DNA from: Rhizobium sp. FY34
Lineage (GTDB): Bacteria; Pseudomonadota; Alphaproteobacteria; Rhizobiales; Rhizobiaceae
Reading direction: 5' to 3'
DNA length: 64,000 nt
Assembly (NCBI RefSeq): GCF_005222845.1
Contig: NZ_STFZ01000014.1
Coordinates: forward strand, 337,517-401,516
The position numbers and the translations under genes are program-made. This document shows positions 31,754 to 51,547 of the stretch, piece after piece (the stretch's first letter is position 1; the number at the start of each line of letters is the position of its first letter). The notes beneath the pieces are model-generated. The model searched no databases. It saw only the letters and a list, made by a program, of their open reading frames with translations, and was not told the DNA's origin.

Positions 31754-31826
31754 GCGAATCTCCTGTTCGTCTCTTGGCCGTAGATGGTGGCAAGATTCTT
31801 GCGTCGATGAAACATATCTCTTGCGT

Positions 31827-31864
31827 CGCCCTCTAATCCGAGTAATCATTCGGATTAGAGGGCG
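31827..31864. promoter_or_regulatory. Candidate TetR operator, 15-bp perfect inverted repeat
   Basis: The arms CGCCCTCTAATCCGA (31827-31841) and TCGGATTAGAGGGCG (31850-31864) are perfectly complementary, with 8 bases between them. The site lies 73 bases upstream of the TetR start codon and 64 bases upstream of the substrate-binding-protein start codon, a fitting place for a shared operator. It could not be a useful terminator for either divergent gene. Confidence 0.8.
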
Positions 31865-31928
31865 TGACGCTCCTATCACACCAGACGGGTGTCGCGAAAG
31901 AATTCCCTCGATAAAAAGGGGAAATTGC

Positions 31929-33509: not shown

Positions 33510-33515
33510 ACGGTG

Positions 33516-35323: not shown

Positions 35324-36387
35324 TGGCAATGCAGCAGATAGAAACACCGCAGACCGGTAGCCCGAAGAATGTCCAGCCACTGCTGCGCATCACCGGTCTG
35401 ACGACGGAGTTCCGACTTGAAGGCGGGCGCCGGTTGCAGGCGGTGCAGGATGTCGATCTGGATATTGGCGCCGGCGAGATCCTCGGTCTTGTGGGGGAAT
35501 CCGGTTCCGGAAAGTCGGTTTTTGCGCAGTCGATCCTGCGTCTCGTCCAGCCGCCGGGGCAGGTTGTTGCCGGCGCCATCGCGTTTGAAGGCCGCAGCGT
35601 GATGGATATGTCGGCGCGCGAATTGTCGCGCTGGCGGGGCCGCGATGTCGGCATGATCTTCCAGCAGCCGCAAAGCTGTCTCAATCCGGTCCGGCGCATC
35701 GGCTGGCAGGTGGCGGAACCCTTGTTGCTTCAGGAAAAACTCAGTCGCAAGGCTGCCTGGGCTGGTGCTGTTGATCTTCTGCGTGCCGTGGGCATACCGG
35801 CCCCGGAGGAGAAGGTGCTGGCCTATCCGCACCAGCTTTCCGGTGGTCAGGCGCAAAGGGTGATGATTGCCATTGCTCTTGCTCTGAAACCGAAGCTGTT
35901 GATTGCCGATGAACCGACGACGGCGCTCGACGTGACTATCCAGGCGCAGATCCTTGAACTACTGCGCGAAAGTTGCCGCATGCTCGGCACATCGCTACTG
36001 CTCGTCACGCATGATCTGGGCGTCGTTGCGCGCCTCGCCGACCGTGTGGCGGTCATGTATGCAGGCCGGATTGTCGAAGAGGGGCCGGTTGAGACGATGC
36101 TCACTGCGCCGGCGCATCCCTATACCCAAGGACTGATCGGGGCGGCACCCCAATTGGGACAGGCCCGTGGCGTGAGATTGAAGGATATTCCCGGAACGAT
36201 CCCTGATCTCAGTCGTCTGGGGGCCGGATGTGCCTTTGCGCCGCGCTGCGATGCGCGCGCCGGTCAAAATCTCGAAAGCTGCACCCTGTCACAGCCATTG
36301 CCGGTGTCGATCCGACCGCGTCACCGCGCGCTCTGTTTTGCCGCAAAGGCAAGTTCTGCCGTCTCTCCATGCGAGATATCCCCATGA
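35320..36387 (+). CDS. Peptide-type ABC transporter ATP-binding protein (DppD family)
   Basis: This 355-residue ATPase has Walker [10 protein letters not shown], signature LSGGQAQRV, Walker [14 protein letters not shown] and the C-terminal oligopeptide-transporter tail ([12 protein letters not shown] and CAFAPRC) with cysteines that in this family can bind a 4Fe-4S cluster. ATG 35320 overlaps the permease stop, and the longer frame from 35170 is inside the permease. It overlaps the next ATPase by ATGA. Confidence 0.93.
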
Positions 36388-37370
36388 CAGTGCCCCCGCT
36401 TCTCGAGGTCAGTCATCTGCGCGTTCAGTATGCGGTGAAAACCGGCCTCTTCGGTCGGGTTCTCGACCACATCAATGCCGTCGATGATGTCAGTTTTTCC
36501 CTGCAGCGTGGCGAAACACTTGGCCTGGTGGGTGAATCCGGCTGCGGCAAGAGCACTCTGGGTCGCACGGTTCTGGCGCTTCAGAAGCCGGCCGGCGGGC
36601 AGGTCCGGTTGCGCAATCAGGATCTCTTTTCGCTGTCGCCCGGTGAACTGAAACACCAGCGTCGTTTTGCGCAAATCATCTTCCAGAACCCGCGTTCCTG
36701 CTTTGATCCGCGCCGCACGCTTGGCTCATCCGTACGCATGGCGCTCGATGTGCAGGACATGCTCGACCCTTCTGCGCGGGATGCGGCAGTGGCGGAGATT
36801 TTTCGCAAGGTTGGACTTCGACCTGAGCATCGCCAGCGCTATCCGCATGAGCTTTCCGGGGGGCAGTTGCAGCGTCTTGGCATTGCGCGCGCTTTGATCC
36901 TGAAGCCTGACCTCATCGTCTGCGATGAGCCGGTATCGGCGTTGGATGTATCGGTGCAGGCGCAGATCCTCAATCTGTTGAGCGATTTGCGCGCAGAGTT
37001 GCAGTTGGCGCTGATTTTCGTGTCGCACAATCTGGCGGTAGTCGAATATATCGCCGACCGGGTGGCGGTGATGTATTACGGGCGCATCGTGGAAATTGCG
37101 CCCACGCGCCAGCTGTTTGCTGATCCGCAGCATCCCTATACCCGCGCGCTTTTGTCGGCGGTTCCATCGATCGACGTGGCCCGCAGGGCAGAGCCGATGC
37201 CCAAGCTCGGAGATCCGCCCAACCCGGCGCGATTGCCCTCCGGCTGCCGCTTTCGCAGCCGCTGTCCCATGGCGATGGCGCGATGTGCGGTGGAAGATCC
37301 GCAATCCGTCGAAATCATATCGGGCCATTGGGTGGCCTGTCATGCCGCAGCAGGTCCTGTCGGCCAATAA
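36384..37370 (+). CDS. Peptide-type ABC transporter ATP-binding protein (DppF family)
   Basis: This 328-residue second ATPase has Walker [11 protein letters not shown]-loop [14 protein letters not shown], signature LSGGQLQRL and Walker [15 protein letters not shown]. The tail [12 protein letters not shown] and CRFRSRCP fits the DppF group. The frame extends upstream to 36228, but ATG 36384 overlaps the DppD-like stop. It pairs with the preceding ATPase as a heterodimer in the importer. Confidence 0.93.
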
Positions 37371-37389
37371 CAAATTGAAAGGAAACACC

Positions 37390-38763
37390 ATGACGGACTG
37401 GCTGGATGCAGCCCTTGCCTATGCGAGCGGCTGGTTGGATTATCAGATGCAGGCAAGCGGGCTTCCCGGTTGCGTGCTGGCCGTTGCTAAGGGGCAGGAC
37501 CTGTTGTTCGAGCGGGCCTATGGTGTCAGTGACCTGTTTACCAATGAGGTTCTGACACCGCGTCATCGCTTCCGCGTCGCCTCGCATTCCAAGACCTTCA
37601 CGGCTGTCGGTATCATGAAGTTGCAGGAGGCCGGGCGCCTGCATCTGGATGACGCTGTTTCACAATACGTGCCGGGGCTGGATGTGGGTGTGGCTGCAAC
37701 CACCATTGGCCAGCTCCTGTCGCATTCGGCCGGCCTCATGCGCGATGGCACGTATGCGCCGCACTGGCAGGTGCGCGATAGCTTCTTTGATGCGCAGCAG
37801 CTGTGCGCGCAATTGTCTGAACCGCTCACTCTCGAAACCAATACCCGCTTCAAGTATTCCAATCTCGGCTATGGTCTGCTCGGCCTTGTCATCGAGGCGA
37901 TCACCGGCGAGGATTATGGCAACTGGATCGAGCGTGAGGTTGTTGCAGCCTCCGGTCTGGCTGAAACCACGTTCGATATGCCGACTGACGGGAGCGCGCC
38001 CCTCTCATCGGGCCATAGCGGCAAGCTGCCCAATGGCCGCGGCCGGATTTTTGGCAATCAGGCCACCCATGCGCTGGCCTCGGCCACCGGCTTTGTCAGC
38101 ACGGCTGCCGATCTGGCACGCTTTTTTGCGCTTATTCATCCGGGTGCGGATGAGGCTGTCCTGTCACCCGCCAGTCGTCGGGAAATGACGCGGCGTCACT
38201 GGCATTTGCCGGGCGAGGGCGAGAAGCGTCACTATGGCCTTGGCACGATCTGCATGGATATCGATGCCCAGGCCGTGTTTGGTCATGCGGGTGCCTTTCC
38301 CGGCTTCATCAGCCGGACATCGGTGATCGAAAAATCGGGCCTCAGCGTTTCGATCGTTACCAATGCCATCGATGGCATGGCGAATGCCTGGGTGGAGGGG
38401 GTTATCTCGATTTTCGGCCTGTTCGCCGAAATTGGCAAGCCGCAGGCGACGGTCGCCGATTGGGACGCGCGCTTCTGGACGATCTGGGGAGCCTGCGATC
38501 TCGTGCCTGCCGGCGATAAGGTACTGATTGCCGATCCTGCCGCACTTCGTCCCTTTGCCGATCGTGGGGAAGTCACGGTCGCGGATCGGCTGAACGGCTA
38601 TATTTCACGCTCGAACGGCTTTGGCAGCTATGGCGAACCGGTGCGCCGGGAAATGTCGCAGACCGGTGCCATGACGCGCCTTATGCTCGGCGGCAATGAA
38701 TTGCTGCCCGATGCGCAAAACCTTGCAATCGATTACGACGCTGCCCTTATGGCAGATGGATAG
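37390..38763 (+). CDS. Serine beta-lactamase-family hydrolase (class C/D-aminopeptidase-like)
   Basis: This 457-residue protein has the penicillin-recognising fold motifs: Ser65-x-x-Lys68 (SHSK), Tyr156-Ser-Asn (YSN) and a late HAG in place of KTG (VFGHAGAFPG). No signal peptide is visible, which argues against a resistance enzyme and for an intracellular esterase, amidase or aminopeptidase acting on what the upstream importer brings in. AAAGGAAA precedes ATG 37390, 20 bases after the ATPase stop. The C-terminal 100 residues look like an extra small domain. Confidence 0.85.
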   Translation: MTDWLDAALAYASGWLDYQMQASGLPGCVLAVAKGQDLLFERAYGVSDLFTNEVLTPRHRFRVASHSKTFTAVGIMKLQEAGRLHLDDAVSQYVPGLDVGVAATTIGQLLSHSAGLMRDGTYAPHWQVRDSFFDAQQLCAQLSEPLTLETNTRFKYSNLGYGLLGLVIEAITGEDYGNWIEREVVAASGLAETTFDMPTDGSAPLSSGHSGKLPNGRGRIFGNQATHALASATGFVSTAADLARFFALIHPGADEAVLSPASRREMTRRHWHLPGEGEKRHYGLGTICMDIDAQAVFGHAGAFPGFISRTSVIEKSGLSVSIVTNAIDGMANAWVEGVISIFGLFAEIGKPQATVADWDARFWTIWGACDLVPAGDKVLIADPAALRPFADRGEVTVADRLNGYISRSNGFGSYGEPVRREMSQTGAMTRLMLGGNELLPDAQNLAIDYDAALMADG

Positions 38764-38783
38764 TCCATCTGCGCTGAGATCCG

Positions 38784-38817
38784 GGGATCGGGCAGAGGTT
38801 TAAACCTGTCCGATCCC
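38784..38817. terminator. Bidirectional hairpin terminator between convergent genes
   Basis: GGGATCGG (38784-38791) pairs with CCGATCCC (38810-38817), with further near-pairing inside (CAG-AGGTTTAAACCT-GT). TTGTTGTT follows on the plus strand. It sits between the convergent stops of the beta-lactamase-like gene and the minus-strand binding protein. Confidence 0.7.
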
Positions 38818-38837
38818 TTGTTGTTCAATGTAACCGC

Positions 38838-40103
38838 TTATTTGCCAAGCGAGGCCTTGATCTTCGATACCTCGTCGGACGCCATCTGCCCAACCGTCGT
38901 CACTTGACCATCGGTGATCTTCCAGAGGCGGAAAGGACCGGTGATATCACCATACTGGTCAAAGCTGACAGGGCCGATGACGCCTTCATATTTGATCGGC
39001 TTGCCCTCTTTCAGCAGTGCCAGGGCCTTTTCAAATTCCGCCTTGCCGGCATGGATCGGCGTTCCGCCCGGTGCCGTCACCTCTGTAATTGCAGCCTTGA
39101 TGGCCGCCTTGTCTGCCTTGCCGGCCTTGGCAATGGCCAGCGCCACGATGGCACCGGCATCATAGGAGCGGTCTGCAGCCGGCGCAGAGGGTGCGATGCC
39201 GCCCGAGAACTTTTCGTAATTGGCGTTGAAATACTCGGTGGACGCCGTCGGCGTCGTGCCGGACGAGGTGCCATAGGCGGCATTCAGGTACTGGGCGCCG
39301 ACGCTTGCGATGAAATCCTTGGAGTTCATGCCGTCATTGAACAGGAATTTCTGCACGCCGCCGCCGGAAATCCAGGCGCGGGCAATGGTTGCGCCATCCA
39401 CCGGGGTCGAGACAAGGTAGAGCGCATCCGGTTCGCCGGTCATGGCGACGGAGGCTTCCGACGAATAGCTCGCCTGCTTTTCATTGTACGGCGTTGTCGA
39501 GGAAATCGTACCGCCAAGCTTGGTATAGGCGGCGGTGAATTCGCGCACCAGGTTCTTGCCGAAATCATTGTTGACGTGAATGATGGTGATCTTCTTCAGG
39601 CCCTGGTCGAGCGCATATTTGGCCGCAGCCGTGCCCTGCAGCGCATCGGATGTGATGGTGCGGAAGAACACGCCGTTAGTCTTGCCGTCGCGGCCAAGCG
39701 CCGTCAGCGTGGGCGAAGAGGAGGCGGGTGAAACTTGCACGACGCCGGCTGGCGCCGTCACCGAGGTGAGGATCGGGATCGACACCGACGAAATGATGCC
39801 ACCGATGATGACCGGCACCTTCTTGATATTGACGAGCTGGGTCGCCTGATCGACGGCGACATTGCCCTGGCTCTGGCTGTCGCGGGTGTCCATCACCAGC
39901 TTGCAGCCGCCGACGCCGCCGGCCTCGTTGAAATCACGGAAAGCCATTTCGACGGATTTCGCACCCGCCTTGCCATATTCGCCGGCAGGGCCGGTCAGCT
40001 CCATGACAACACCGACGGTGATATCGCAGCTTTGCGCGAAGGCCGGTGAGGCGCCAAGCGCAAGACCGGCAAGCATGGTGGATGTAAGGACCAGTTGTCT
40101 CAT
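38838..40103 (-). CDS. HAAT-type ABC transporter substrate-binding protein
   Basis: This 421-residue periplasmic binding protein of the Leu/Ile/Val family has a signal peptide (MRQLVLTSTMLAGLALGASPAFA) and domain landmarks VGVVMELTGPAGEYGKAG and IIGGIISSVSIPILTSV. It is last in a four-gene minus-strand operon. Its membrane and ATPase partners are the divergent livGFHM genes at 42345-45776. ATG 40103 is preferred because it begins the signal peptide. An ATG six codons earlier (40121) has an equally good ribosome-binding site created by an 18-base tandem duplication. Confidence 0.92.
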   Translation of the reverse strand: MRQLVLTSTMLAGLALGASPAFAQSCDITVGVVMELTGPAGEYGKAGAKSVEMAFRDFNEAGGVGGCKLVMDTRDSQSQGNVAVDQATQLVNIKKVPVIIGGIISSVSIPILTSVTAPAGVVQVSPASSSPTLTALGRDGKTNGVFFRTITSDALQGTAAAKYALDQGLKKITIIHVNNDFGKNLVREFTAAYTKLGGTISSTTPYNEKQASYSSEASVAMTGEPDALYLVSTPVDGATIARAWISGGGVQKFLFNDGMNSKDFIASVGAQYLNAAYGTSSGTTPTASTEYFNANYEKFSGGIAPSAPAADRSYDAGAIVALAIAKAGKADKAAIKAAITEVTAPGGTPIHAGKAEFEKALALLKEGKPIKYEGVIGPVSFDQYGDITGPFRLWKITDGQVTTVGQMASDEVSKIKASLGK

Positions 40104-40135
40104 CTCATTCCCCTTTTTCATGTCATTCCCCTTTG
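40100..40135 (-). repeat. Tandem 18-base duplication of ribosome-binding site and start codon
   Basis: On the minus strand two adjacent 18-base units, CAAAGGGGAATGACATGA and AAAAGGGGAATGAGATGA, differ at two positions. Each contains a GGGGA ribosome-binding site and an ATG. The first unit also contains the TGA stop of the aldo/keto reductase, so translation of the binding protein can be coupled at two in-frame starts six codons apart. Confidence 0.85.
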
Positions 40136-41169
40136 TTGAGATTGTATTTCATGATGCTGCCGTGACGCCCCGTGCGGTCGCGCTCGAGGGTATAGACGTC
40201 GCCTTCCAGCTCGTTTGCGCCGCCCAGCGCCTGATCGATCTCGAAGAGATCGGCATCGGAGAGGGCAATGGTGGCGATGGCGAGATTGGAGGGGAGGTGG
40301 TCGCGGTTGCGCGCGCCGACGATGACAGCCGATACGCCGGGCTTGCGTAACATGGCTGCACTGGCAATCGTCGCGATATCGGTGGCATGCCTGTCGGCGA
40401 CCTTGCGCAGGGCTGACAGAAGCGACTGGAAGAGATCCCAGCCGCCGAGATCATCGATGATCAGCTTGTATTTCGTGAGTGAGCGGTTTTCGAGCGGATG
40501 CTCGGGCTCCTGCCTGCCCAGCCAGCGGTCGGAGAGAAAGCCGCCGGCCACGGTGCCATAGCAGAACAGCGCAAAATCATTGGCTTTGCCAAGCGCCACC
40601 ATGCGCTTTTCCGGGCGCCGGTCGAGCAGAGAATATTGCAGCTGCAGCGAGGTGAAGGGAATGCCGGCATCGAGGATGGCCTCCACATGCTCGCTATCGA
40701 AATTGGTGCCGCTGATCTTGTTGATCTTGCCGTCGGCCTGCAATTCCTTCAGCCAGCCCAGCGTGTCGAGCCAGGCCGGCATGTCATAATCCCACCAGTG
40801 AAACTGCACGAGATCCAGGCAATCGAGGTTGAGGCGCTGGCGCGATGTGTCGATCACGCTTTCCACATAGGCCTTGGTAATGGTCGGCAGAACGCCAAGA
40901 TCCGGCACGAATTTCGTATGAACCCGGATGCGCTCCAGGGCCTGTGCACCATGAAGGTCGCGGTAGCGCAGCCGGAAGCGGCCGATCAGATCCTCGACGC
41001 CGGTATAGATATCGGCACAGTCGAACGTGGTAATGCCGGCATCGGCAAAGGCCACCATGTCGTCGATCGCTAGAGCCTGGTCCACCGCGCCATGGCCGCC
41101 GGCCAGTTGCCAGCCGCCGCGAATGACGCGGGATATCTCATAACCGGGGGCGATGGTGATGCGCTGCAT
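40123..41169 (-). CDS. Aldo/keto reductase
   Basis: This 348-residue NAD(P)H-dependent oxidoreductase has the aldo/keto tetrad Asp50, Tyr55 (FDCADIY), Lys86 (HTKF) and His124 (QFHWW), and the late cofactor loop VSAVIVGARNRDHL. It shares the QFHWW motif and overall plan with the reductase part of the fusion protein at 45781 on the other arm of the divergon. The frame is open to 41262, but ATG 41169 gives the usual N-terminus. It begins 5 bases after the TIGR04076-like gene. The substrate is unknown. Confidence 0.9.
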   Translation of the reverse strand: MQRITIAPGYEISRVIRGGWQLAGGHGAVDQALAIDDMVAFADAGITTFDCADIYTGVEDLIGRFRLRYRDLHGAQALERIRVHTKFVPDLGVLPTITKAYVESVIDTSRQRLNLDCLDLVQFHWWDYDMPAWLDTLGWLKELQADGKINKISGTNFDSEHVEAILDAGIPFTSLQLQYSLLDRRPEKRMVALGKANDFALFCYGTVAGGFLSDRWLGRQEPEHPLENRSLTKYKLIIDDLGGWDLFQSLLSALRKVADRHATDIATIASAAMLRKPGVSAVIVGARNRDHLPSNLAIATIALSDADLFEIDQALGGANELEGDVYTLERDRTGRHGSIMKYNLNKGE

Positions 41170-41174
41170 GGGAA

Positions 41175-41522
41175 TTACTTTTCTTGAAGGGGAACGGCTG
41201 TGGTTTGCGCATGGCTGAAACGGCGAAGGCCGGTGCGCCTTATCCTCAGCCGCGTCGAACAATTGGGATCGGGACAGGCAATGTCGGCATCCGTCGTCAT
41301 CCAGTCATGGGCATGAGTGGGTCGCTGCTTGGCAGCCAGCAGCGGCAGTACGGCGGCAAGCGAATAGATCGACATGCCCTGTCCGGGCGGCATATGCAGC
41401 ATCTCGCCCTGCAATTCGAAGTAATCGCCGGGCTTTGCGCCGCAATAGACCTTGCCGCCTTCCGGCACGATGACCTCGACCCGCAGGTCGAAAAGCTCGA
41501 ATGTATCGTCTAGGCTGCTCAT
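41175..41522 (-). CDS. TIGR04076-like uncharacterised small protein
   Basis: This 115-residue cytoplasmic protein with FDLRVEVIV, GDYFELQGEMLHMPPGQGMSIYSLAAVLPLL and a late CPDPNCSTRLRI resembles the TIGR04076 family, small proteins of unknown function with a beta-strand/loop plan. The cysteine pair in CPDPNC could bind metal. ATG 41522 follows GAGGAG. It is placed between the GntR regulator (10 bases upstream) and an aldo/keto reductase. No role is established. Confidence 0.7.
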   Translation of the reverse strand: MSSLDDTFELFDLRVEVIVPEGGKVYCGAKPGDYFELQGEMLHMPPGQGMSIYSLAAVLPLLAAKQRPTHAHDWMTTDADIACPDPNCSTRLRIRRTGLRRFSHAQTTAVPLQEK

Positions 41523-41532
41523 TGCTCGCTCC

Positions 41533-42255
41533 TCATGCTGCTTCCTCGCCGGCATCGAGACGCCCGCGCACCAGATCGAAGGAGCGACCGATATCATTGG
41601 CCAGCGCCTCGACGGCTGCCGTCTCATTGCGCGCCTCTAGCGCTTCCACCATCATCCAATGGTGATTGGTGGCGGCAAGTCCGCCCTGTTCGTCGTGGAT
41701 ATGGGCGGCGGCACGCACCACTGGGCCAGATTGCAGCCAGAGGCTTTCCACCATGGGGATGAGCACCTGAGAGCCAGCGGCCCGGTAGATCTGGAAATGG
41801 AAGCGCTGGTTGATTTCCGAGGTTACCGGCGCAATATCCTGGCCGTGGCGGGCAAAGGCTGCCTCGCAATCCCGGTTGATCTGCTTGAGCCCTTCCAGAT
41901 CGTTCGCCGTCAGCCGCGTGCAGGCGAGCGCCACCAGACGGCCTTCGATGAGAATGCGGGCGCGCTCCAGATCATCCAGCCGTTGGCGGGTGATCAGCGG
42001 CACGCGCACCGAGCGGTTGGGCAGCGCTTCCAGCGCCTGTTCGGAGACGAGCCGCCCGAGAGCCTCGCGTACCGGCATGGTGCTGGTCTTCAGCCGGTCC
42101 GCCAGATCGACAATGCGCAGCATATCGCCGGCCGAAAATCCGCCATTGATCAGCGTGCGGCGCAGCTGGCCATAGACGCGGTCCTGCACGGTCTCTCGCC
42201 CGACGGGGGTGAGGAGATCATCCATCTGGCTAACCGTTTCCGTCATTCCTGCCAT
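41533..42255 (-). CDS. GntR-family (FadR/FCD-type) transcriptional regulator
   Basis: This 240-residue regulator has an N-terminal winged helix (VYGQLRRTLINGGFSAGDMLRI and TSTMPVREALGRLVSEQALE) and a C-terminal FCD helical domain with His residues suitable for metal and ligand binding (FHFQIYRAAGS, NHHWMMVEAL). ATG 42255 follows AAAGG. An in-frame ATG lies three codons later. It heads the minus-strand operon and is divergent from livGFHM with a short gap holding two palindromes, so it very probably controls both arms. Confidence 0.9.
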   Translation of the reverse strand: MAGMTETVSQMDDLLTPVGRETVQDRVYGQLRRTLINGGFSAGDMLRIVDLADRLKTSTMPVREALGRLVSEQALEALPNRSVRVPLITRQRLDDLERARILIEGRLVALACTRLTANDLEGLKQINRDCEAAFARHGQDIAPVTSEINQRFHFQIYRAAGSQVLIPMVESLWLQSGPVVRAAAHIHDEQGGLAATNHHWMMVEALEARNETAAVEALANDIGRSFDLVRGRLDAGEEAA

Positions 42256-42274
42256 TGTGCGCCTTTCAGGAAAT

Positions 42275-42322
42275 ATCGGTTGATTTTCGTTTAGACCTAA
42301 AGTTTGATCAAACATCACCGAT
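42275..42322. promoter_or_regulatory. Candidate GntR operators in the divergent promoter
   Basis: Two palindromes lie side by side between the divergent starts: TTTAGACCTAAA (42290-42301) and the perfect GTTTGATCAAAC (42302-42313). They are flanked by a wider imperfect pair, ATCGGTTGAT (42275-42284) and ATCACCGAT (42314-42322). Nested symmetry of this kind fits dimeric FCD-GntR binding. Confidence 0.65.
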
Positions 42323-42344
42323 CAAATCAAGGCCTCATTTGAAG

Positions 42345-43157
42345 ATGACTGCCGAATCATTCCAGCCACCCGCACCGCCCTTCAATGCAGCAGCGACGTC
42401 TGCCATCGAGGCGCGGCATCTGACCAAGCGGTTTGATGGCCTCACCGTCGTTTCCGATATGTCGCTCACGGTCGGGCAGGGGGAAATGGTCGGGCTGATC
42501 GGCCCGAACGGTGCCGGCAAGACCACCATGTTCAACCTGCTGGCCGGCAGCTTGGCGCCCACCGCTGGCGAAATCTGGATTGCCGGTCGCGAAGTATCGG
42601 GCGATCCGCCGGAAAAGCGCATCGCCCATGGCGTCGCCCGCACCTTCCAGATTCCGCGGCCCTTTGCCGAAATGAGCGTGCTGGAAAACCTGCTGGTCGG
42701 CGCGCAGAAACAGCATGGCGAGCGGCTCTTTGCCAACTTCCTCACCCCCGGTCTGGTGCGGCGCGAAGAAAAGACCGCACTGGACAAGGCGCACACACTT
42801 CTCGATTTCGTCACGCTTTCACGGCTGGCGCATGAGCCGGCGCGGGTGCTGTCGGGCGGGCAGCGCAAGCTTCTGGAACTGGCGCGCGTGCTGATGGCCG
42901 ATCCTCAGGTAATCCTGCTCGATGAACCGGCAGCCGGTGTCAATCCGGCCCTTCTGGAGGTGATCATCGAGCGGGTGGTGGCGCTCAACGAACAGGGAAA
43001 ATCGATCCTGCTGATCGAGCACAACATGGACATGGTCTCGCGGCTCTGCTCGCGCGTGGTGGCCATGGCGCTCGGCAGGCCACTGGCGGAAGGATCGCCC
43101 GCCGATGTCGCGGCCAATCCGGCCGTCATTGAAGCCTATCTCGGAGGTGTCGCATGA
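42345..43157 (+). CDS. livG: ABC transporter ATP-binding protein (LivG family)
   Basis: This 270-residue ATPase has Walker A GPNGAGKTT at about residues 53-61, signature LSGGQRKLLELARVL and Walker B VILLDEPAAGVNP. The first 20 residues (PPAPPFNAAATS) form a short extension not usual in LivG. The frame is open from 42255, but ATG 42345 is the best start. It is first in the plus-strand arm of the divergon. The binding protein for this importer is on the opposite arm. Confidence 0.92.
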   Translation: MTAESFQPPAPPFNAAATSAIEARHLTKRFDGLTVVSDMSLTVGQGEMVGLIGPNGAGKTTMFNLLAGSLAPTAGEIWIAGREVSGDPPEKRIAHGVARTFQIPRPFAEMSVLENLLVGAQKQHGERLFANFLTPGLVRREEKTALDKAHTLLDFVTLSRLAHEPARVLSGGQRKLLELARVLMADPQVILLDEPAAGVNPALLEVIIERVVALNEQGKSILLIEHNMDMVSRLCSRVVAMALGRPLAEGSPADVAANPAVIEAYLGGVA

Positions 43158-43900
43158 CCAATACCGTTCTTGCGACGTCTTTGCTTGTGGCGGGTTATGA
43201 GCCGGATCTGCCGATCGTGCGTGGCGTGGATTTTGCCGTCACGAAGGGCGAGATTGTCATACTTCTGGGGCCGAACGGTGCGGGAAAATCCACCTTCGTC
43301 AAGGCGATTGCCGGCATGGTGCCGGTGCATTCCGGCACGATCCATCTGGCGGGCCGCGATATCACCAGGGTTGCGCCGCATCGCAAGCTGGCGGAAGGTC
43401 TGGCCTTCGTGCCGCAGACGGAGAACGTCTTTGCCAGCATGAGCATTCTGGAAAACCTGCAGATTGCCGTGGCTCTTCTGCCCAAGGCTCAGCGCGCCGC
43501 CAAGATCGATGCCCTGTTTGCCCGCTTTCCGGATCTGGCGATCAAGCCTACGCGTTTGGCCGGCGCCCTTTCCGGCGGGCAGCGGCAGATGCTGGCGGTC
43601 GCACGGGCGCTGGCGCTCGATCCGCCGGTTCTCATTCTGGACGAACCCTCGGCCGGGCTTTCTCCCAAAACCGTTGGCGAGGTATTTGCCATGCTCAAGC
43701 GCATCAATGGCGATGGCGTGACGATCATTCTCGTCGAACAGAACGTCAAGGCCGCCATGGCGATTGCCGATCGTGCCGTCATCCTGGCAGAGGGGCGCAT
43801 TGCCCATGAAGGCACGCCGGCGGAACTCGCCGATGATCCGCTGATCGGCAAGATCTATCTCGGCACGGCACGGCATGTATCGAGCGAGGCCGCCCTATGA
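43154..43900 (+). CDS. livF: ABC transporter ATP-binding protein (LivF family)
   Basis: This 248-residue ATPase has Walker A GPNGAGKST near residue 39, signature LSGGQRQML and Walker B LILDEPSAGLSP, followed by the D-loop typical of LivF. It overlaps livG and livH by ATGA at both ends, so all genes of this arm are translationally coupled. Confidence 0.93.
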   Translation: MTNTVLATSLLVAGYEPDLPIVRGVDFAVTKGEIVILLGPNGAGKSTFVKAIAGMVPVHSGTIHLAGRDITRVAPHRKLAEGLAFVPQTENVFASMSILENLQIAVALLPKAQRAAKIDALFARFPDLAIKPTRLAGALSGGQRQMLAVARALALDPPVLILDEPSAGLSPKTVGEVFAMLKRINGDGVTIILVEQNVKAAMAIADRAVILAEGRIAHEGTPAELADDPLIGKIYLGTARHVSSEAAL

Positions 43901-44808
43901 ACCCGCAATTCCTCATGGATGGGCTAATTGCCGGCGCCATTATCGGGCTCGGTGCCATCGGCGTGACGCTCACCTATTCGATCCTGCGCTTTTCCAACTT
44001 CGCCCATGGCGAGCTTTTATCCTGGGGCGCCTATCTGGCGCTCGGTATCAGCGGCGCGCTCGGCTTTCTTGCCGCCGGGCTCAAACAGCCCATTGGCCCG
44101 TTTTCGTTTGGCTGGTCGCTGCCGATTGCTGCCGTCCTCGCCATCATCCTCACCGGGCTTCTGGCGCTGGCCGTCGATGCGGCCCTGTTTTCCAGCTTCC
44201 GGCGGCGCGGCAGCGCCATCATCATCATGGTCATGGCAAGCTTTGGCGCCTCGCTTGCGCTGCGCAGCCTGCTAGAATTCTTCTTTACCTCCAAGCCCGC
44301 CTATTTCACGCAGGCGCTGCAGATCGCCATGAAGCTCGGCGGCGGCCTGCGCGCCACGCCGGACCAGCTGGCCATGCTGGTCGTGGCGCTGGTCTCGGTG
44401 ATTGCCGTCCATCTGGTGATGACCCGCACGGATATCGGCCGGGCCATGCGCGCCGTCAGCGAAAACCCGTCGCTTGCCGGCATTGCCGGCATCGATGTGC
44501 GCCGCGTCATCCGCACTGTCTGGTTTCTCGGTGCCGCACTTGCCTGCATTGCTGGCATGATGAGCGGCCTGATCATCCAGATCCGTCCCTATCTCGGCCA
44601 TGACCTGCTGCTGCCGCTGTTTGCCGCGGCCATTCTCGGCGGCATTGGCTCGGTGCCGGGCGCCATGATTGCCGGCCTGATCATCGGATTGTGCGAGGCC
44701 TTCACCGTGCAGATCATCGGTGCCGAATGGCGCTCGGCGGTCTCCTTCGCCATTCTCATTGCCGTCCTTCTCGTTCGTCCTCGCGGCCTGTTTGGAAAAG
44801 CATCATGA
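43897..44808 (+). CDS. livH: Branched-chain-amino-acid-type ABC transporter permease (LivH family)
   Basis: This 303-residue polytopic membrane protein has the LivH block VTLTYSILRFSNFAHGELLSWGAY near residue 25 and the coupling loop TDIGRAMRAVSENPSLAGIAGI near residue 185. It is preceded and followed by ATGA overlaps with livF and livM. The gene order here is livGFHM, unlike HMGF in the importer at the left end of the window, so the two systems are not recent duplicates. Confidence 0.93.
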   Translation: MNPQFLMDGLIAGAIIGLGAIGVTLTYSILRFSNFAHGELLSWGAYLALGISGALGFLAAGLKQPIGPFSFGWSLPIAAVLAIILTGLLALAVDAALFSSFRRRGSAIIIMVMASFGASLALRSLLEFFFTSKPAYFTQALQIAMKLGGGLRATPDQLAMLVVALVSVIAVHLVMTRTDIGRAMRAVSENPSLAGIAGIDVRRVIRTVWFLGAALACIAGMMSGLIIQIRPYLGHDLLLPLFAAAILGGIGSVPGAMIAGLIIGLCEAFTVQIIGAEWRSAVSFAILIAVLLVRPRGLFGKAS

Positions 44809-45776
44809 CCCTTGATCTTGTCGCCTACGGCGCCTTCTTTCTCACCATGGCGCTGACTTATGCGATCATCTGCCTGGGTCTCAACGTGCAATGGGGCATG
44901 ACGGGCCTGTTCAATGTCGGCATCGCTGCCTTCGTTGCCGTCGGGGCCTATACGTCCGCCATCCTCACCACGCCGGAAACACCGGACCGTTTCGGCGGCT
45001 TCGATCTGCCGATTGCTATTGGCTGGCTGGGGGCAGCTGTGGTCTCCGGTGCGCTTTCCTGGGGTGTCGGTGCGCTGACGATCAGGCTGCGGGCCGATTA
45101 CCTTGCCATTGCCACTTTCGGCGTGGCGGTCACGGTGCAGCTTTGCATGCTCAATCTGCAGCCGCTGACCGGCGGCGCCTTCGGCATCGGCTTCATCCCG
45201 CGGCCTTTTGCGCAGCTGCAGGCGGATGCCTTGCTGTTCAGCCTTGCCAATTGCGGTCTTCTGATGCTCGTCATCGCCGGGCTTTATCTTGGCCTGCAGC
45301 ATGTCGCGAAAAGTCCCTGGGGCCGCGTCCTGCGCGCCATTCGCGAGGATGAAACGGCGGCGCAGGCGCTCGGCAAGCGGCCCATCCGCTTTCGCCTGCA
45401 GGCCTTTACCCTTGGCGGCGCCATCATGGGGCTGGCCGGTGCTGCGCAAGCGCATTTCATCGGCTTCATCGCCCCGGATAATTACATGCCCATCCTCACC
45501 TTCCAGGTCTGGGCCATGCTGATCGTCGGCGGCTCCGGCAACAATCGCGGTGCGATTGCCGGCGCCATCCTTGTCTGGGGCCTCTGGGCGCTGACGGCTG
45601 CTGCCGTCTCCGCCTTCGTGCCGCCGGAGGATCAGGCGCAGGCTGCCGCCCTGCAAATCGTCGCCATTGGCGTCGGGCTCTGCCTGATGCTTCTCCTGCG
45701 CCCGCGCGGTCTCTTCGGCGAGGTAAGCCCGCTTGCCCGCCTGCGCAACACATTGCCCCTATCGGCCAAGGAATAA
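44805..45776 (+). CDS. livM: Branched-chain-amino-acid-type ABC transporter permease (LivM family)
   Basis: This 323-residue second permease has the LivM hallmark LGLNVQWGMTGLFNVGIAAF near residue 24 and the coupling loop SPWGRVLRAIREDETAAQALGK near residue 170. The frame is open from 44691, but ATG 44805 overlaps the livH stop. It is followed after 4 bases by the aldo/keto reductase-Rid fusion, so that enzyme is in the same transcript. Confidence 0.93.
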   Translation: MTLDLVAYGAFFLTMALTYAIICLGLNVQWGMTGLFNVGIAAFVAVGAYTSAILTTPETPDRFGGFDLPIAIGWLGAAVVSGALSWGVGALTIRLRADYLAIATFGVAVTVQLCMLNLQPLTGGAFGIGFIPRPFAQLQADALLFSLANCGLLMLVIAGLYLGLQHVAKSPWGRVLRAIREDETAAQALGKRPIRFRLQAFTLGGAIMGLAGAAQAHFIGFIAPDNYMPILTFQVWAMLIVGGSGNNRGAIAGAILVWGLWALTAAAVSAFVPPEDQAQAAALQIVAIGVGLCLMLLLRPRGLFGEVSPLARLRNTLPLSAKE

Positions 45777-45780
45777 TACA

Positions 45781-47247
45781 ATGCCAATCTATCCCGAACG
45801 CACCATGCTTGCACCGGGCCTTACCATCAGCCGGCTCGTCTGTGGCCTCTGGCAGGTCGCCGATATCGAAAAGAGCGGCACGACGATCAACCCGGAGTTG
45901 GGGGCAGACGCATTGCAGGCCTATGCGCAGGCCGGTTTCGATACATTCGATATGGCCGACCATTATGGATCGGCGGAAATCATCACCGGCCATCTGCTGA
46001 AGCGCTATCCGGCGGCATCCGCACGGCCGCTCGCCTTCACCAAATGGTGCCCGGAACCCGGCCCGATGACCCGTGATGTAGTGCGGCGCGGCGTGGAAGA
46101 CCGGCTGCAACGGCTGGGCACCGATAAGGTTGACCTGTTGCAGTTCCACTGGTGGACCTTCGAACATCCGGCCTGGCTCGATGCCCTGCATGAGATGCAG
46201 GCGATGAAGGCGGAAGGCCTGATCGGCGCTTTGGGATTGACCAATTTCGATGCCGCGCACCTCAACCTCGCGCTTGCCGACGGTATCGAGATTGCCAGCA
46301 ATCAGGTGTCCTTCTCGCTGATCGACCGGCGTGCGGCGGGGGATCTGTCGGCGCTTTGCCAGAAGACGGGCGTGAAGCTTCTTGCCTATGGCACGCTCTG
46401 CGGAGGTTTTCTGTCTGAAAAATGGCTCGGCCAGCCGGAGCCGGCCTCGATCCCCGACTGGAGCCGCTCGAAATACAAGCGCTTCATCGATACCGCCGGC
46501 GGCTGGGCCGTCTATCAGGGCATCCTCGCAGCTGCCTCTGATATTGCCCGCAAGCACGGCGTTTCGGTATCGAATGTCGCCAGCCGCTGGGTGCTGGAAC
46601 ATCCGGCAGTGGCCGCCACCATCATCGGCGCGCGGCTTGGCGAAAACGAGCACCGGGACGACAACCTCAAGGTCTTTACCTTCACGCTGGACGAGGATGA
46701 CAAGGCTCTGCTGGAAGATGCCTTTGCCGCAAGCACCGCCATCCCCGGCGATTGCGGCGATGAATACCGAAAGCCGCCCTTCCTCACTGCCTCCGGCGAC
46801 CTCAGCCACCATCTCGAGGCGATCCCGTCGGTCTATACGGCCACGCCGGTGCCGGGTCGGGCAAACCGGCTGCGTGTCTCGTCCGGCAGTATCTGGGAAC
46901 CGCTTGCCGGTTATAGCCGCGCCGTGCGCATCGGTGATCGCATTCTGGTGTCGGGCACGACGGCGACGCATGACGCCGACCGCTGCGTGGCACCCGGTGA
47001 TCCCGGTGCGCAGGCCACCTATATTCTCGACAAGATCGCGGCATCCATCACAGCGCTCGGTGGGCGCATGGAGGACGTCGTGCGCACCCGCATCTATCTG
47101 AAGGATGCTGCGCAGTGGGAGCCCGTATCGCGCGCCCATGGCCGCGTCTTTTCCGAAATCCTGCCGGCCAATACGCTGATCGAGGCCGGCGCTCTGATTG
47201 GCGATTATGAGGTGGAGATCGAGGCCGAAGCCATTGTCATGCAATAG
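45781..47247 (+). CDS. Aldo/keto reductase fused to a C-terminal Rid (YjgF/YER057c/UK114) domain
   Basis: This 488-residue protein has two parts. Residues 1 to about 330 are an aldo/keto reductase with Asp57, Tyr62, Lys88 and His123 (QFHWW) and cofactor loop VAATIIGARLGENEHR. Residues about 361-488 are a Rid-family domain (YSRAVRIGDRILVSGTTATH, MEDVVRTRIYLKD, EVEIEAEAIV). The Arg that RidA deaminases use (usually PxR followed by S/T/C-x-V-E) is replaced by Asn464 in LPANTLIEAG, placing it with the Arg-less Rid groups. AAGGAA precedes ATG 45781. There is no frameshift between the parts. A joint role on a carbonyl/imine or enamine substrate is inferred. Confidence 0.9.
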   Translation: MPIYPERTMLAPGLTISRLVCGLWQVADIEKSGTTINPELGADALQAYAQAGFDTFDMADHYGSAEIITGHLLKRYPAASARPLAFTKWCPEPGPMTRDVVRRGVEDRLQRLGTDKVDLLQFHWWTFEHPAWLDALHEMQAMKAEGLIGALGLTNFDAAHLNLALADGIEIASNQVSFSLIDRRAAGDLSALCQKTGVKLLAYGTLCGGFLSEKWLGQPEPASIPDWSRSKYKRFIDTAGGWAVYQGILAAASDIARKHGVSVSNVASRWVLEHPAVAATIIGARLGENEHRDDNLKVFTFTLDEDDKALLEDAFAASTAIPGDCGDEYRKPPFLTASGDLSHHLEAIPSVYTATPVPGRANRLRVSSGSIWEPLAGYSRAVRIGDRILVSGTTATHDADRCVAPGDPGAQATYILDKIAASITALGGRMEDVVRTRIYLKDAAQWEPVSRAHGRVFSEILPANTLIEAGALIGDYEVEIEAEAIVMQ

Positions 47248-47283
47248 AGCGGGTCTTGATCCGGTCGAAATACGCTTGATCGA

Positions 47284-47312
47284 TCCTGACGCAGGGCACT
47301 GCTGCGTCAGGA
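47284..47312. terminator. Bidirectional hairpin terminator between convergent operons
   Basis: An 11-bp perfect stem (TCCTGACGCAG 47284-47294 with CTGCGTCAGGA 47302-47312) has a 7-base loop. It lies between the stops of the aldo/keto reductase-Rid fusion and the minus-strand biotin carboxylase. No long T-run follows, so Rho help is possible. Confidence 0.75.
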
Positions 47313-47337
47313 CGGGGTGATAGTCCCCGATCCGATA

Positions 47338-49065
47338 TCAGTCCTCGAAACGGGCAATCTCGCTTCCGGCCTGCAGATAGGCGCCGGCACTGGCGGTGAT
47401 GCGCACGCGCCCGGCGCGTAAGGCCGTCACCTGCGTTTCCATCTTCATCGCCTCCATGACAGCGATCAGATCACCCTTTTCGACATCTGCGCCATCTTCC
47501 ACCTTGAAGGCCTGGAGCGTGCCGGAGATTGGTGCGGTTATGCTGGCTGTGTCTTCAACCTTTGCCGGGCCGGCGGTTGCTGCGCCCGTGGAAAGCCCGC
47601 CAAGGCCCGCCAGAAGGGCGGCCGGAATGCCCAGAGCATGGCGCTTGCCGTCGATCTCCACATGGGTGCGGATGAGTGTGTCACCGGCACTCGGTTGCGG
47701 CCGGGCGGCGGCCTCCAGCGTGTCGGCAAAATCCGTCTCGATCCAGCGGGTATGCACCTTGAAGCCCTGTTCGGCGGTAAAATCCGGGTTTTCCATGGCG
47801 GCGCGGTGGAATGGCAGCACGGTCGCGACCCCTTCGATCCGAAACTCCTTCAGCGCCCGGCGGGCACGCGAAAGTGCCTGCTCGCGGGTTGCACCGGTGA
47901 CGATCAGCTTTGCCATCAGTGAATCGAATGTACCGGGCACTGTCGATCCGGACACGACACCGGTATCGAGCCGGACGCCGGGGCCAGACGGCGGCTCAAA
48001 CAGGCTGATTGTGCCCGGCGTCGGCAGGAAACCACGGCCCGGATCTTCAGCATTGATGCGAAATTCGATCGAGTGACCGCGCGGCGCCGGCGTCTCGGTA
48101 ATGGTAAGCGCCTTGCCTTCTGCGATGCGGAACTGTTCGATGACGAGGTCGATGCCCGTGGTTTCCTCGGTCACCGGATGCTCGACCTGCAGGCGGGTAT
48201 TGACCTCGAGGAAAGAGATTGTGCCATCGACGCCGAGCAGGAATTCGACCGTGCCGGCGCCCGAATAACCGGCGGCAGCGCAGATGCGCTTGGCCGCGTC
48301 ATGGATCGACTGTCGCTGCTCATCACTGAGGAAAGGGGCTGGTGCCTCCTCGACGAGTTTCTGGTTGCGGCGCTGCAAGGAGCAATCGCGCGTGCCGAGC
48401 ACCAGAACATTGCCGTGGCTGTCGGCAAGCACCTGCGCCTCGATATGGCGCGGCCTGTCGAGAAAACGTTCGAGGAAGCATTCGCCCCGCCCGAAGGCAA
48501 GTTCGGCTTCGCGCACGGCAGAGGCATAAAGCTCGGGGATTTCCTCCATATTCCAGGCGACTTTCAAGCCGCGTCCACCGCCACCATGGGCCGCCTTGAT
48601 CGCGACCGGCAGGCCATGGCTCTTTGCAAAGGCGATGACTTCCTCCGCCGTTTCCACCGGGCCGTCGCTGCCGGCAACCAGCGGCGCGCCAACGCTTGTG
48701 GCAATCCGGCGCGCTTCAACCTTGTCGCCCAGCGCCTCGATGACATGCGGGTCAGGGCCGATCCAGGTGAGGCCGGCCTGCTGGACGGCGCGGGCAAATT
48801 CGGCGCGCTCCGAGAGAAATCCATAGCCGGGATGCACGGCATCCGCCCCGGCGCGCTTGGCGATCGCAATCAGCTTGTCCATGTCGAGATAGGTCTCGGC
48901 AGGGCGGCTGCCGTCAAGGCCATAGGCCTCGTCGGCCAGATGGACGAAAACGGCGTCCAGATCCGGATCGGCATAGACGGCAACCGATTGCAGCCCGTAA
49001 TCGCGACAGGCGCGAATGATGCGCACGGCAATTTCACCGCGGTTTGCGATCAGCACTTTCTTCAT
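47338..49065 (-). CDS. Biotin carboxylase with C-terminal biotin carrier domain (AccA3/urea-carboxylase type)
   Basis: This 575-residue protein couples an ATP-grasp biotin carboxylase ([19 protein letters not shown] at the start, HGGGGRGLK glycine-rich loop, [15 protein letters not shown]) to a biotinyl domain with Lys541 in EAMKMET. It makes carboxybiotin and needs a carboxyltransferase partner. No acyl-CoA carboxyltransferase is nearby, but the next gene upstream in the operon is a KipI-KipA (PxpB-PxpC) fusion, the same fold as the carboxyltransferase of urea carboxylase. ATG 49065 follows GAGGAGA. An ATG at 49086 is weaker. Confidence 0.9.
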
Positions 49066-49117
49066 CGGATGTCTCCTCACTGACATTGATAGGTTCTGGC
49101 GGTCACTGCGTTGCGGT

Positions 49118-50713
49118 TCAGCCCTTGGCGGGCTTTATCTCGGCAAAGGAGGTGACGGGCCGGAACTGGATTTTGGCATTGACCGGGATCTGCCCGGCCA
49201 GATCGAGATGATAGTCTGCAACCGTCCCGATAACCGGATAGCCGCCGGTCAGTGGATGGTCGGCGAGAAACAGAACAGGCTGACCGCTATGCGGAACCTG
49301 GATGGCGCCGGTTGCCGTGCCTTCGCTCGGCAGTTCGGCTTTGTCCTTGCGCTCCAGGGCTTCTGGCCCCGATAGCCTGATCCCGACGCGGTTGGATTGC
49401 GGCGTGACCTCATAGGTCTGTTCGCTCAAGGTCTTCACGCCATGATCGGTAAACCAGTCGCTGCGCGGTCCCATGATGACGTCGAGCGTCACCGTTTCGC
49501 CGGCCATGGGCAGATCGAAGGCCGGCAGTTCCAAGAGCGACACGGCTGAGAGTTGCGCGGTATCGGATCTGATCGACAGGACAGCACCTGAAGTGACCGG
49601 ATCCGGGCCAACGACCGCCAGCGTATCGGTGGAAGCGCTGCCGAGTACCGGCGATATATCAAAGCCGCCGCGAAGGGCGAGATAGCTGCGCGCACCCTTT
49701 AGGGCAAAGCCGAGCGTCACGACATCACCCGCTTCCAGCGCAATCGGCTGATAGGTCGCCTGCGTCATTTCGCGGCCGTTTACATCGCGGATGGTGATCG
49801 GGCAGGGGGCTCCGGTCAGCGCCATGACGGCCCGGCCCGAGACTTCAAAGGAAAAGCCACCCAGCGTGATTTCAAGACAGGGCGTGCCGGGCGGATTGCC
49901 GACGACCCGGTTTGCTGCCTTGAACGCTCCCAGATCAAGCGCGCCGGAAGCCGAAACGCCCTGGCCCGTCTGGCCAAAACGCCCGAGATCCTGAAACAGA
50001 GCCGGCATGGGCGCGGAAAGCACCCTGATAGACAGGCCCGCTTGCGCGTCACTCTGCGGTTTTGCCGGCGCTGGTGTGCTCTCCACCTCTGCCATTGCCC
50101 TTCTGGAAAGATCGAAGAAGCGCACGCGGTAACCGGGCTGGAACAATGCCGGCGGGTCACGCGACAGGTCCCACATTTTGAGGGGCGTTGTGCCGATGAT
50201 CTGCCAGCCGCCCGGACTGTTTTGCGGATAGACACCGGAAAACGCGCCGGCAAGGGCGACTGACCCGGCGGGGATCTTCGTGCGCGGACTCTGGCGGCGG
50301 GGAACCTGCAAGGCCGGATCGCCGCCCACCAGATAGCCAAAGCCGGGAGCAAAGCCGCAAAAGGCCACCGTGAAGGTGCTTTGTGTGTGGCGGCTAACAA
50401 CCTCCTCGACCGAAAGCCCGGTGAGAGCGGCCACATCGGCCAGATCCTCGCCATCATAGTGGACGGGGATGTCCACCAGCATGTCGGAGGGTGCGATCTT
50501 TGCCGAGAGGTCACGATGGGCGATGTCTGCGGCAAGACGTTCCGGCGTCAGCCTGTCGGGGCGAAAGCGGATCATCAGCGTGCGGGCCGCCGGCACCATG
50601 TCCTCGATGCCCTCCACAGGATCGGCTTCCAGCGAGGCAAACAGCGCCAACGTCTCGTCGAGATCCTTGAGTTCGACAAGCAGTACAGTCAGGCTTACGG
50701 GCAGAAAGCGCAT
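49118..50713 (-). CDS. pxpBC: Fused 5-oxoprolinase subunits B and C (KipI-KipA type)
   Basis: This 531-residue fusion has a KipI/PxpB domain at about residues 1-215 (ending in [16 protein letters not shown] and [11 protein letters not shown]...[13 protein letters not shown]) and a KipA/PxpC domain at about 235-531 ([45 protein letters not shown]). In bacteria PxpABC cleaves 5-oxoproline to glutamate with ATP, and the same two domains form the carboxyltransferase of urea carboxylase. ATG 50713 follows TGAGG and lies 7 bases after the DUF1445 gene. The longer frame to 50788 overlaps that gene. Confidence 0.9.
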
Positions 50714-50720
50714 CGGGACC

Positions 50721-51527
50721 TCAGGCGTGGTAGGCAGAATCGGGAATGTCGGTGATGAACATGTGCCCCGGCGCATGGGTGATGGCAAAGGGTACGCCGG
50801 ATGCCATCACGGCTGCCTGTGGTGTGACGCCGCAAGCCCAGAACACCGGCACTTCGCCGGGTTCGATGCGCACGGGATCGCCGAATTGCGGTTTGGCAAG
50901 ATCGACAATGCCAATCTCCTCCGGTGCGCCGACATGCACCGGCGCGCCATGCACGGCCGGAAAGCGGCCGGAAATGGTGGCGGCATCCGCCACGCGTGAG
51001 GCCTGGATCGGCCGCATGGAGACGACCATATTGCCATGCAGGCGGCCAGCCGGCCGGCAGGGCCTGTTGGTCAGATACATTGGCACGTTCGACTTGTCGG
51101 TGATGTGGCGGATTTCGATGCCGGCATCCAGCATCGGGGTCTCGAAAGTGAAGCTGCAACCGATCAGGAAGCTTACGAGATCCGGATATTCGGCCCAGGC
51201 ATCCGAGGCATCGGAGGTTTCCTCGGCAAGTTTGCCATCGCGCCAGATGCGGTAGAGCGGCAGATCGCGGCGCAGGTCGGCGCCCGGCGCAAGCAGGGTC
51301 GCATGCGAGCCCGGATCGGACACGTCGAGCACGGGGCAAGCCTTCGGGTTGCGCTGCGCATAGAGCAGGAAATCAAAGGCCCAGTCGCGCGGCAGCACAA
51401 TCATGTTGGCCTGGGTGAAGCCGGGTGCAATGCCGGATGTCGGTGCGATCTGCCCGGCGCGATAGGCCTCACGGGCCAGGCGGGCAGGCGTTGCATCGAC
51501 ATGGCGGAGATGGTCAAGGGCGATCAT
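50721..51527 (-). CDS. DUF1445/YcsI protein, D-glutamate cyclase-like
   Basis: This 268-residue protein of the DUF1445 family carries [15 protein letters not shown], the [10 protein letters not shown] block and APGHMFITD near the end. The family includes the mitochondrial D-glutamate cyclase, which turns D-glutamate into 5-oxo-D-proline, and B. subtilis YcsI. In this operon, with PxpA and PxpBC, it could supply or remove 5-oxoproline (inference). ATG 51527 follows GGAG. No signal peptide is present. Confidence 0.88.
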
Positions 51528-51547
51528 GGATGGGCTCCGAAACGGGA

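Follow-up and report, generated by a model that had tools for sequence, protein, structure and literature searches.

We analyzed a stretch of 64,000 nucleotides from Rhizobium sp. FY34 (contig NZ_STFZ01000014.1, positions 337,517 to 401,516; hereafter, the window) and focused on a group of nine genes at positions 38838-47247. The genes lie in two divergent arms: those for a periplasmic solute-binding protein (SBP), an aldo/keto reductase (AKR1), a TIGR04076 family protein, and a GntR-type regulator run leftwards, and those for LivG, LivF, LivH, LivM, and a fusion of an aldo/keto reductase with a Rid domain (AKR-Rid) run rightwards. The locus is a genuine conserved unit. We propose, with a probability of about 0.5, that it imports and breaks down a compound of the tryptophan or kynurenine class under the control of a ligand, by the mechanism outlined below. 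The features of the locus are as follows:

38838-40121, minus strand: SBP, a HAAT-type periplasmic solute-binding protein (PF13458, 6.1e-43)
40123-41169, minus strand: AKR1, an aldo/keto reductase with an Asp-Tyr-Lys-His set (PF00248, 1.9e-61)
41175-41522, minus strand: TIGR04076 family protein of 115 amino acids (TIGR04076, 56.3 bits, cut-off 33)
41533-42255, minus strand: FCD-class regulator of the GntR type, with the ATG at 42255 taken as its start (PF00392 and PF07729)
42302-42313, no strand: candidate operator for the GntR regulator, GTTTGATCAAAC, within the 89 bp between the arms (by conservation)
42345-43157, plus strand: LivG, an ABC ATPase (PF00005 and PF12399)
43154-43900, plus strand: LivF, an ABC ATPase (PF00005)
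43897-44808, plus strand: LivH, a permease (PF02653)
44805-45776, plus strand: LivM, a permease (PF02653)
45781-47247, plus strand: AKR-Rid, with an N-terminal aldo/keto reductase domain and a C-terminal Rid domain (PF00248 and PF01042)

A preliminary description of this DNA had grouped the same nine genes as tightly packed or overlapping, and their coordinates, strands, and family matches agree with it. Gaps of 10, 5, and 1 bp separate the genes of the left arm; on the right arm, LivG/LivF, LivF/LivH, and LivH/LivM overlap by 4 bp each, and a gap of 4 bp separates LivM from AKR-Rid. Judging from the listed start codons, the ATG at 42255 is a better start for the GntR gene than the GTG at 42318, which leaves an intergenic region of 89 bp (42256-42344) ahead of the LivG start at 42345. 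An SBP, two BPD_transp_2 permeases, and two ATPases are encoded together, as in HAAT importers, and the regulator combines a GntR winged helix (PF00392) with an FCD ligand domain (PF07729). The TIGR04076 protein scores above the curated cut-off of its family. No Rfam family matched within positions 36000-50000 of the window.

The cluster is conserved as one unit

A scan of a genome collection with AKR-Rid returned at least 581 stretches encoding a relative, the best 80 of which were compared; being the best matches of a longer list, this sample leans towards close relatives. The exact order and strand of the nine genes are kept in 70 of the 80 loci, as are all five importer genes (70/80). The genera represented are Rhizobium, Neorhizobium, Mesorhizobium, Nitratireductor, Aurantimonas, Stappia, Inquilinus, and Pseudooceanicola. 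Among the 10 loci without the full order, four have the right arm only (L032, L036, L038, and L087, the last of which starts at a contig end) and six differ in other ways (L017, L065, L069, L084, L085, and L088; L017 and L065 are short or cut). It is because 70 of the best 80 loci keep nine genes in order and strand that we regard the locus as more than a chance join. The earlier claim of a single system thus holds across several genera: the neighborhood recurs in many genomes, and the two reductases, rather than being drawn from unrelated clusters, sit in the same conserved cluster.

The two reductases were also described as paralogs that share the motif QFHWW on opposite arms. The motif is present in both. 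A tree, whose outgroup rows were few and long, joins the AKR domains of AKR1, of AKR-Rid, and of a third type found in related loci in one clade (99/97 support), separate from five other aldo/keto reductases of the genome. A search with AKR1 in 398 phylum-level genomes gave matches of E 1e-60 or better in 13, all from the same class or nearer.

In L032, L036, and L038, livGFHM and AKR-Rid are kept, and genes for SBP, AKR1, TIGR04076, and GntR are absent from the fetched stretch, to which the search was confined.

A candidate operator lies between the two arms

Of 72 homologous GntR-livG intergenic regions (that of the window included), 70 contain a palindromic 10-mer, TTTGATCAAA, against 0.045 expected in approximate dinucleotide shuffles. 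The extended 12-mer GTTTGATCAAAC is found in 55 of the 72 regions. A search for a wider regulon found the 12-mer once in the 5.04-Mb genome and the 10-mer at five sites, about the expectation for a random 10-mer. The same operator lies between GntR and livG even in the divergent locus L134, where the regulator is only 47% identical. The conservation of the palindrome and the uniqueness of the 12-mer are good evidence that one predicted site serves both arms; a palindrome in the promoter region under control is also what is expected of a GntR-type regulator.

AKR1 and TIGR04076 form a constant core in Alphaproteobacteria

Searches with TIGR04076 alone gave matches over the family cut-off in 30 of 219 order-level genomes and in 21 of 385 class-level genomes (23 loci, leaving out two matches below the cut-off, G031 and G100). 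An AKR1 gene lies within 1.5 kb of TIGR04076 in 30/30 order-level and 21/23 class-level loci, and this adjacency identifies the two as a core pair that is constant in Alphaproteobacteria. The transporter, GntR, and Rid parts vary: Liv permeases are found within 10 kb in 27/30 and 13/23 loci, a GntR gene within 6 kb in 19/30 and 4/23, and AKR-Rid in 18/30 and 6/23. A DAO-family flavoenzyme occurs in 5/30 and 3/23 loci, and SnoaL/DUF4440-like genes in 10/30 and 4/23. Since DAO and AKR-Rid were never found together in these order-level or class-level loci, they look like alternatives. In four class-level loci (L133, L136, L142, and L145), Rid is a separate gene and the third type of aldo/keto reductase is present.

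Two haloarchaeal plasmids also carry AKR1 with TIGR04076. The pairing is not universal, since Rhodococcus plasmids carry TIGR04076 without AKR1. On these (L099 and L100), TIGR04076 stands beside LLM flavin oxidoreductases with no aldo/keto reductase annotated; L100 has two tandem TIGR04076 genes and a salicylyl-CoA 5-hydroxylase-type gene, and the two plasmids represent another aromatic-catabolism context. Conversely, a Rhizobium jaguaris plasmid (L095) encodes an AKR1 homolog (63% identity) with no TIGR04076 annotated; its neighbors there are IS66 genes, a non-ribosomal peptide synthetase, and a gene of the acyl-CoA dehydrogenase family. The variants with HyuA and standalone Rid repeatedly have a gene of the class-V aminotransferase fold next to them (L142, 15554-17023; L133, 15041-16360).

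Residues Cys27, Cys83, Cys88, and His104 of the TIGR04076 protein are kept in 124-125 of 127 sequences, a pattern that suggested a metal site of three cysteines and one histidine. Such a site is not essential to the family, since a haloarchaeal copy (L098) is without these cysteines and 2 of the 127 sequences lack Cys27 and Cys83. The predicted structure (model pLDDT 87.8) gave weak matches when compared with known folds, the XdhC/CoxI-like fold being the one asked about.

The reductases keep their catalytic residues and the Rid domain lacks its arginine

An Asp, Tyr, Lys, and His tetrad is the catalytic set of aldo/keto reductases, and both reductases of the window carry it, which suggests that both are active enzymes of this type. 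In AKR1, D50, Y55, and K86 are present in 124/124 sequences and H124 in 112/124, with F, Y, or C in the other 12. In AKR-Rid, D57, Y62, K88, and H123 are present in 101/101 sequences.

The Rid domain, whose closest solved chain is 3i7t, has Asn at the position of RidA Arg105 in 105/105 sequences, which places it outside the RidA imine deaminase subfamily. In a survey of the Rid family, the RidA arginine is described as needed for imine hydrolysis, and the Rid4-7 groups, which lack it, are judged unlikely to be imine hydrolases (PMC4433059). Because Asn replaces this essential residue throughout, a RidA-type imine step by the Rid domain is unlikely, and we rejected it. The imine or enamine stage that the preliminary description had read from the presence of a Rid domain is accordingly not upheld.

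The best solved matches of the SBP are LIV-type binding proteins. Its Asp263 aligns with an acid in 4n0q, 3td9, and 3ip5, which we take to hold the amine of the ligand, and this position is Asp in 89/89 SBPs at 55% identity or more. Transportome data from S. meliloti were sought as a route to the ligand; this species is absent among the 30 plasmid rows listed.

Kynurenine-pathway genes recur beside the cluster

Genes for tryptophan 2,3-dioxygenase (TDO), kynureninase (KynU), or both lie inside or beside the set in 9 of the 80 loci. In L074, L078, L080, and L083, KynU and TDO are flanked by livM and AKR-Rid and share their strand; L028, L044, L063, L066, and L067 have TDO and a CoA ligase beyond AKR-Rid, starting within 2.5 kb, and four of these five have KynU as well. 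A tenth locus (L060) has a formamidase-like hydrolase and a CoA ligase. Indolepyruvate-oxidoreductase-like genes are found in L062, L068, and L070 (in L062, the alpha gene is below and the beta gene above the model cut-off). The label formamidase-like needs a caveat: the matching model is named hormone-sensitive lipase (HSL), the genes of L160 and L177 score above its cut-off and those of L134 and L145 fall short, and the position of these HSL-family hydrolases beside TDO and KynU is the sole ground for the label. TDO, formamidase-like, and KynU genes are all present in L074, L078, L080, L134, and L161.

Loci found through TIGR04076 alone gave a similar picture. Four of the 30 order-level loci (L176, L177, L183, and L191) have TDO within 10 kb, and 3 of the 23 class-level loci (L134, L142, and L145) have TDO or KynU at such a distance, against about 0.26 and 0.24 expected by chance even on the assumption that both genes occur in every genome (P = 1.5e-4 and 1.9e-3). 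In L177, the TIGR04076-AKR1 pair faces TDO and the hydrolase, and the Liv permeases of the set are missing from the vicinity; in L134, a TDO-like gene, KynU, and a hydrolase are at the locus. NCBIfam models place TDO over the cut-off in L028, L160, L176, L177, and L183, and KynU in L028, L083, L134, and L160.

The association extends to whole genomes, in Fisher tests that count related genomes as independent. In the order-level set, KynU is present in 19 of 30 TIGR04076 genomes versus 28 of 189 others (odds ratio 9.9, P = 7e-8), and a control gene, HmgA, in 14 of 30 versus 52 of 189 (odds ratio 2.3, P = 0.052). In the family-level set, 18 of 22 AKR-Rid genomes have KynU versus 63 of 129 others (P = 0.005). 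Three of the 18 genomes with both genes have KynU within 5 kb of AKR-Rid (1.0 to 3.4 kb), against 0.045 expected. The preliminary description had spoken of an imported nitrogen-containing compound. Because genes for TDO, KynU, and the formamidase-like hydrolase are repeatedly found in or alongside the cluster, we narrow this to a compound probably of the tryptophan or kynurenine class.

The genome of Rhizobium sp. FY34 itself has KynU, TDO, and an HSL-family hydrolase in a tight same-strand group (L160, 7561-10585). This hydrolase is probably the kynurenine formamidase, despite the name of its model.

A proposed mechanism

Our model starts from the observed gene content and its conservation, the conserved operator, the active-site residues, and the neighbor statistics. 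SBP and LivHMGF would import the compound, as their families suggest, and the FCD-type GntR regulator, bound at GTTTGATCAAAC, would repress both arms until the compound or its product binds. AKR1, with its constant partner TIGR04076, may then interconvert a carbonyl and an alcohol in an NAD(P)-linked reaction, and AKR-Rid may catalyze a second step, perhaps an oxidation beside nitrogen, since a DAO-family flavoenzyme may do this in other lineages; the direction and the order of these redox steps are our tentative assignment. The product would enter the kynurenine route, in which TDO, the formamidase-like hydrolase, and KynU, positioned as described above, would lead to anthranilate. The Rid domain probably does not hydrolyze imines in the manner of RidA and, more speculatively, may bind or reshape an intermediate. 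In this model, TIGR04076 and the arginine-less Rid type become parts of a single widespread catabolic unit for which a candidate substrate class can be named, and the kynurenine pathway would gain an added entry route in soil, plant-associated, and marine alphaproteobacteria.

A bolder version, which we offer tentatively and with the odds somewhat against it, is a new upstream branch of the kynurenine pathway, in which AKR1-TIGR04076 and AKR-Rid (or DAO) convert a modified tryptophan or kynurenine derivative, taken up by the importer, to a substrate of TDO or kynureninase, the arginine-less Rid domain having a new catalytic or binding role. If true, it would provide a first function for TIGR04076 and for the arginine-less Rid group.

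Several observations weigh against a substrate of the tryptophan or kynurenine class. The window cluster has no gene for TDO, formamidase, or KynU and is thus not in itself a kynurenine-pathway locus; the KynU-TDO-hydrolase group of the same genome is on another contig and without the operator. Kynurenine genes are missing from the surroundings of most Rhizobium-type loci, none of the 30 order-level loci has KynU within 10 kb, and 4 of the 22 family-level genomes with AKR-Rid have no KynU. The gene calls at TDO in L134 and L191 and at KynU in L142 and L145 are below the model cut-offs. Beyond the non-independence of the genomes in the Fisher tests, KynU and HmgA are themselves associated in the same 219 order-level genomes (odds ratio 5.9), so that part of the co-occurrence of TIGR04076 and KynU may be general. 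The acid at position 263 of the SBP is replaced by N, Q, or L in 18/18 divergent SBPs (less than 50% identity), those of L134, L142, and L145 among them; since these include loci with kynurenine genes, the ligand may differ between subtypes. DAO is not a strict stand-in for AKR-Rid either, a DAO-family gene being about 7.5 kb from AKR-Rid in L167, which is outside the loci found by TIGR04076. The DAO partner is closest to the L-pipecolate oxidase AmaA (305 bits, cut-off 600) and a HyuA-like gene in divergent loci to the caprolactamase alpha subunit (477 bits, cut-off 1000), both well below their cut-offs. We also know of no enzyme of the set with tryptophan-linked activity.

Some of these points belong equally to a different explanation, namely that the kynurenine link reflects a general clustering of aromatic catabolism genes and that the substrate is unrelated to tryptophan, for example a cyclic or secondary amino acid (pipecolate-like) or a lactam. 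The association of KynU with HmgA and the nearest relatives of the DAO and HyuA-like proteins are what it would predict, as are an EutA/arylmalonate-decarboxylase-like gene in divergent loci (128 and 125 bits, cut-offs 318 and 225) and AspDH-like genes in L088, L091, L170, and L204. Against it, the association of HmgA with TIGR04076 is the weaker one, and HmgA lies within 10 kb of TIGR04076 in 0 of the 14 genomes that have both; TDO and KynU adjoin the set in several arrangements. We consider this explanation unlikely. The general scheme of the preliminary description, in which a nitrogen compound passes through a carbonyl stage (the two reductases) and an imine or enamine stage hydrolyzed by the Rid domain, is in keeping with the intact reductase residues and with related loci that have standalone Rid genes or DAO-family oxidases, a free Rid gene adjoining DAO in L133 and L136. 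The Asn in place of the RidA arginine in every sequence makes its second stage hard to sustain, and the scheme as a whole is improbable.

The reductases might instead be aldose or lactol dehydrogenases acting on a sugar-like or conjugated compound, of which tryptophan is merely a released part. Members of the AKR superfamily oxidize sugars to lactones, SnoaL/DUF4440-like genes recur at the loci in the numbers given above, and in L096 genes for a pentulose kinase and a polyol dehydrogenase form a group that flanks the cluster. In the annotated loci examined, however, the core genes are not interrupted by any sugar gene, and we rate this as very unlikely.

Relation to known systems

To our knowledge, the established kynurenine route (TDO, kynurenine formamidase, and kynureninase, leading to anthranilate) proceeds without an aldo/keto reductase, a TIGR04076 protein, or a Rid protein. 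The cluster is connected with this pathway in that the genes of the pathway lie inside or beside several relatives of the cluster and are grouped elsewhere in the same genome, and differs in that none of them is in the window cluster. Likewise, the importer has the composition of HAAT (LIV-type) systems and an SBP nearest to LIV-type binders, except that the SBP gene is split off onto the divergent arm. The C-terminal Rid domain of AKR-Rid is a further member of the Rid family (RidA and Rid1-7), which differs in being fused to an aldo/keto reductase and belongs, by its missing arginine, to the arginine-less group as set out in PMC4433059.

The Variovorax iad operon for auxin degradation is similar in that a plant-associated bacterium imports an indole compound by a dedicated SBP and degrades it towards anthranilic acid (PMC10374108). 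It differs in using the Rieske dioxygenase IadDE with the reductase IadC, and "aldo" occurs 0 times in the main text of that paper. A locus for iad-type degradation of indole-3-acetic acid was rejected on this ground and because no Rieske dioxygenase is among the nine genes of the window.

For TIGR04076, the single paper that turned up guesses at a potential role in redox reactions or iron cluster metabolism (PMC8667426), and no function was found to be established in the open-access literature of one library. In the same library, searches for TIGR04076, for kynureninase or kynurenine with an aldo/keto reductase and a transporter, and for an aldo/keto reductase with RidA found no description of the set, in agreement with the earlier statement that no pathway is assigned to it. 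The individual parts are all of known kinds; within the reach of these searches, the combination and the kynurenine link are new.

Flanking genes

Ahead of the cluster, positions 31596-38763 hold an oligopeptide-type ABC transporter set, read from open reading frames alone, which is followed by a serine hydrolase (37384-38763) with a weak match to AmpH (74 bits, cut-off 266). Adjoining the cluster on the other side, the minus strand encodes a 5-oxoprolinase set (47338-52312) with a biotin carboxylase-like protein, a fused PxpB-PxpC, a D-glutamate cyclase/hydro-lyase, and PxpA, which looks like a separate unit.

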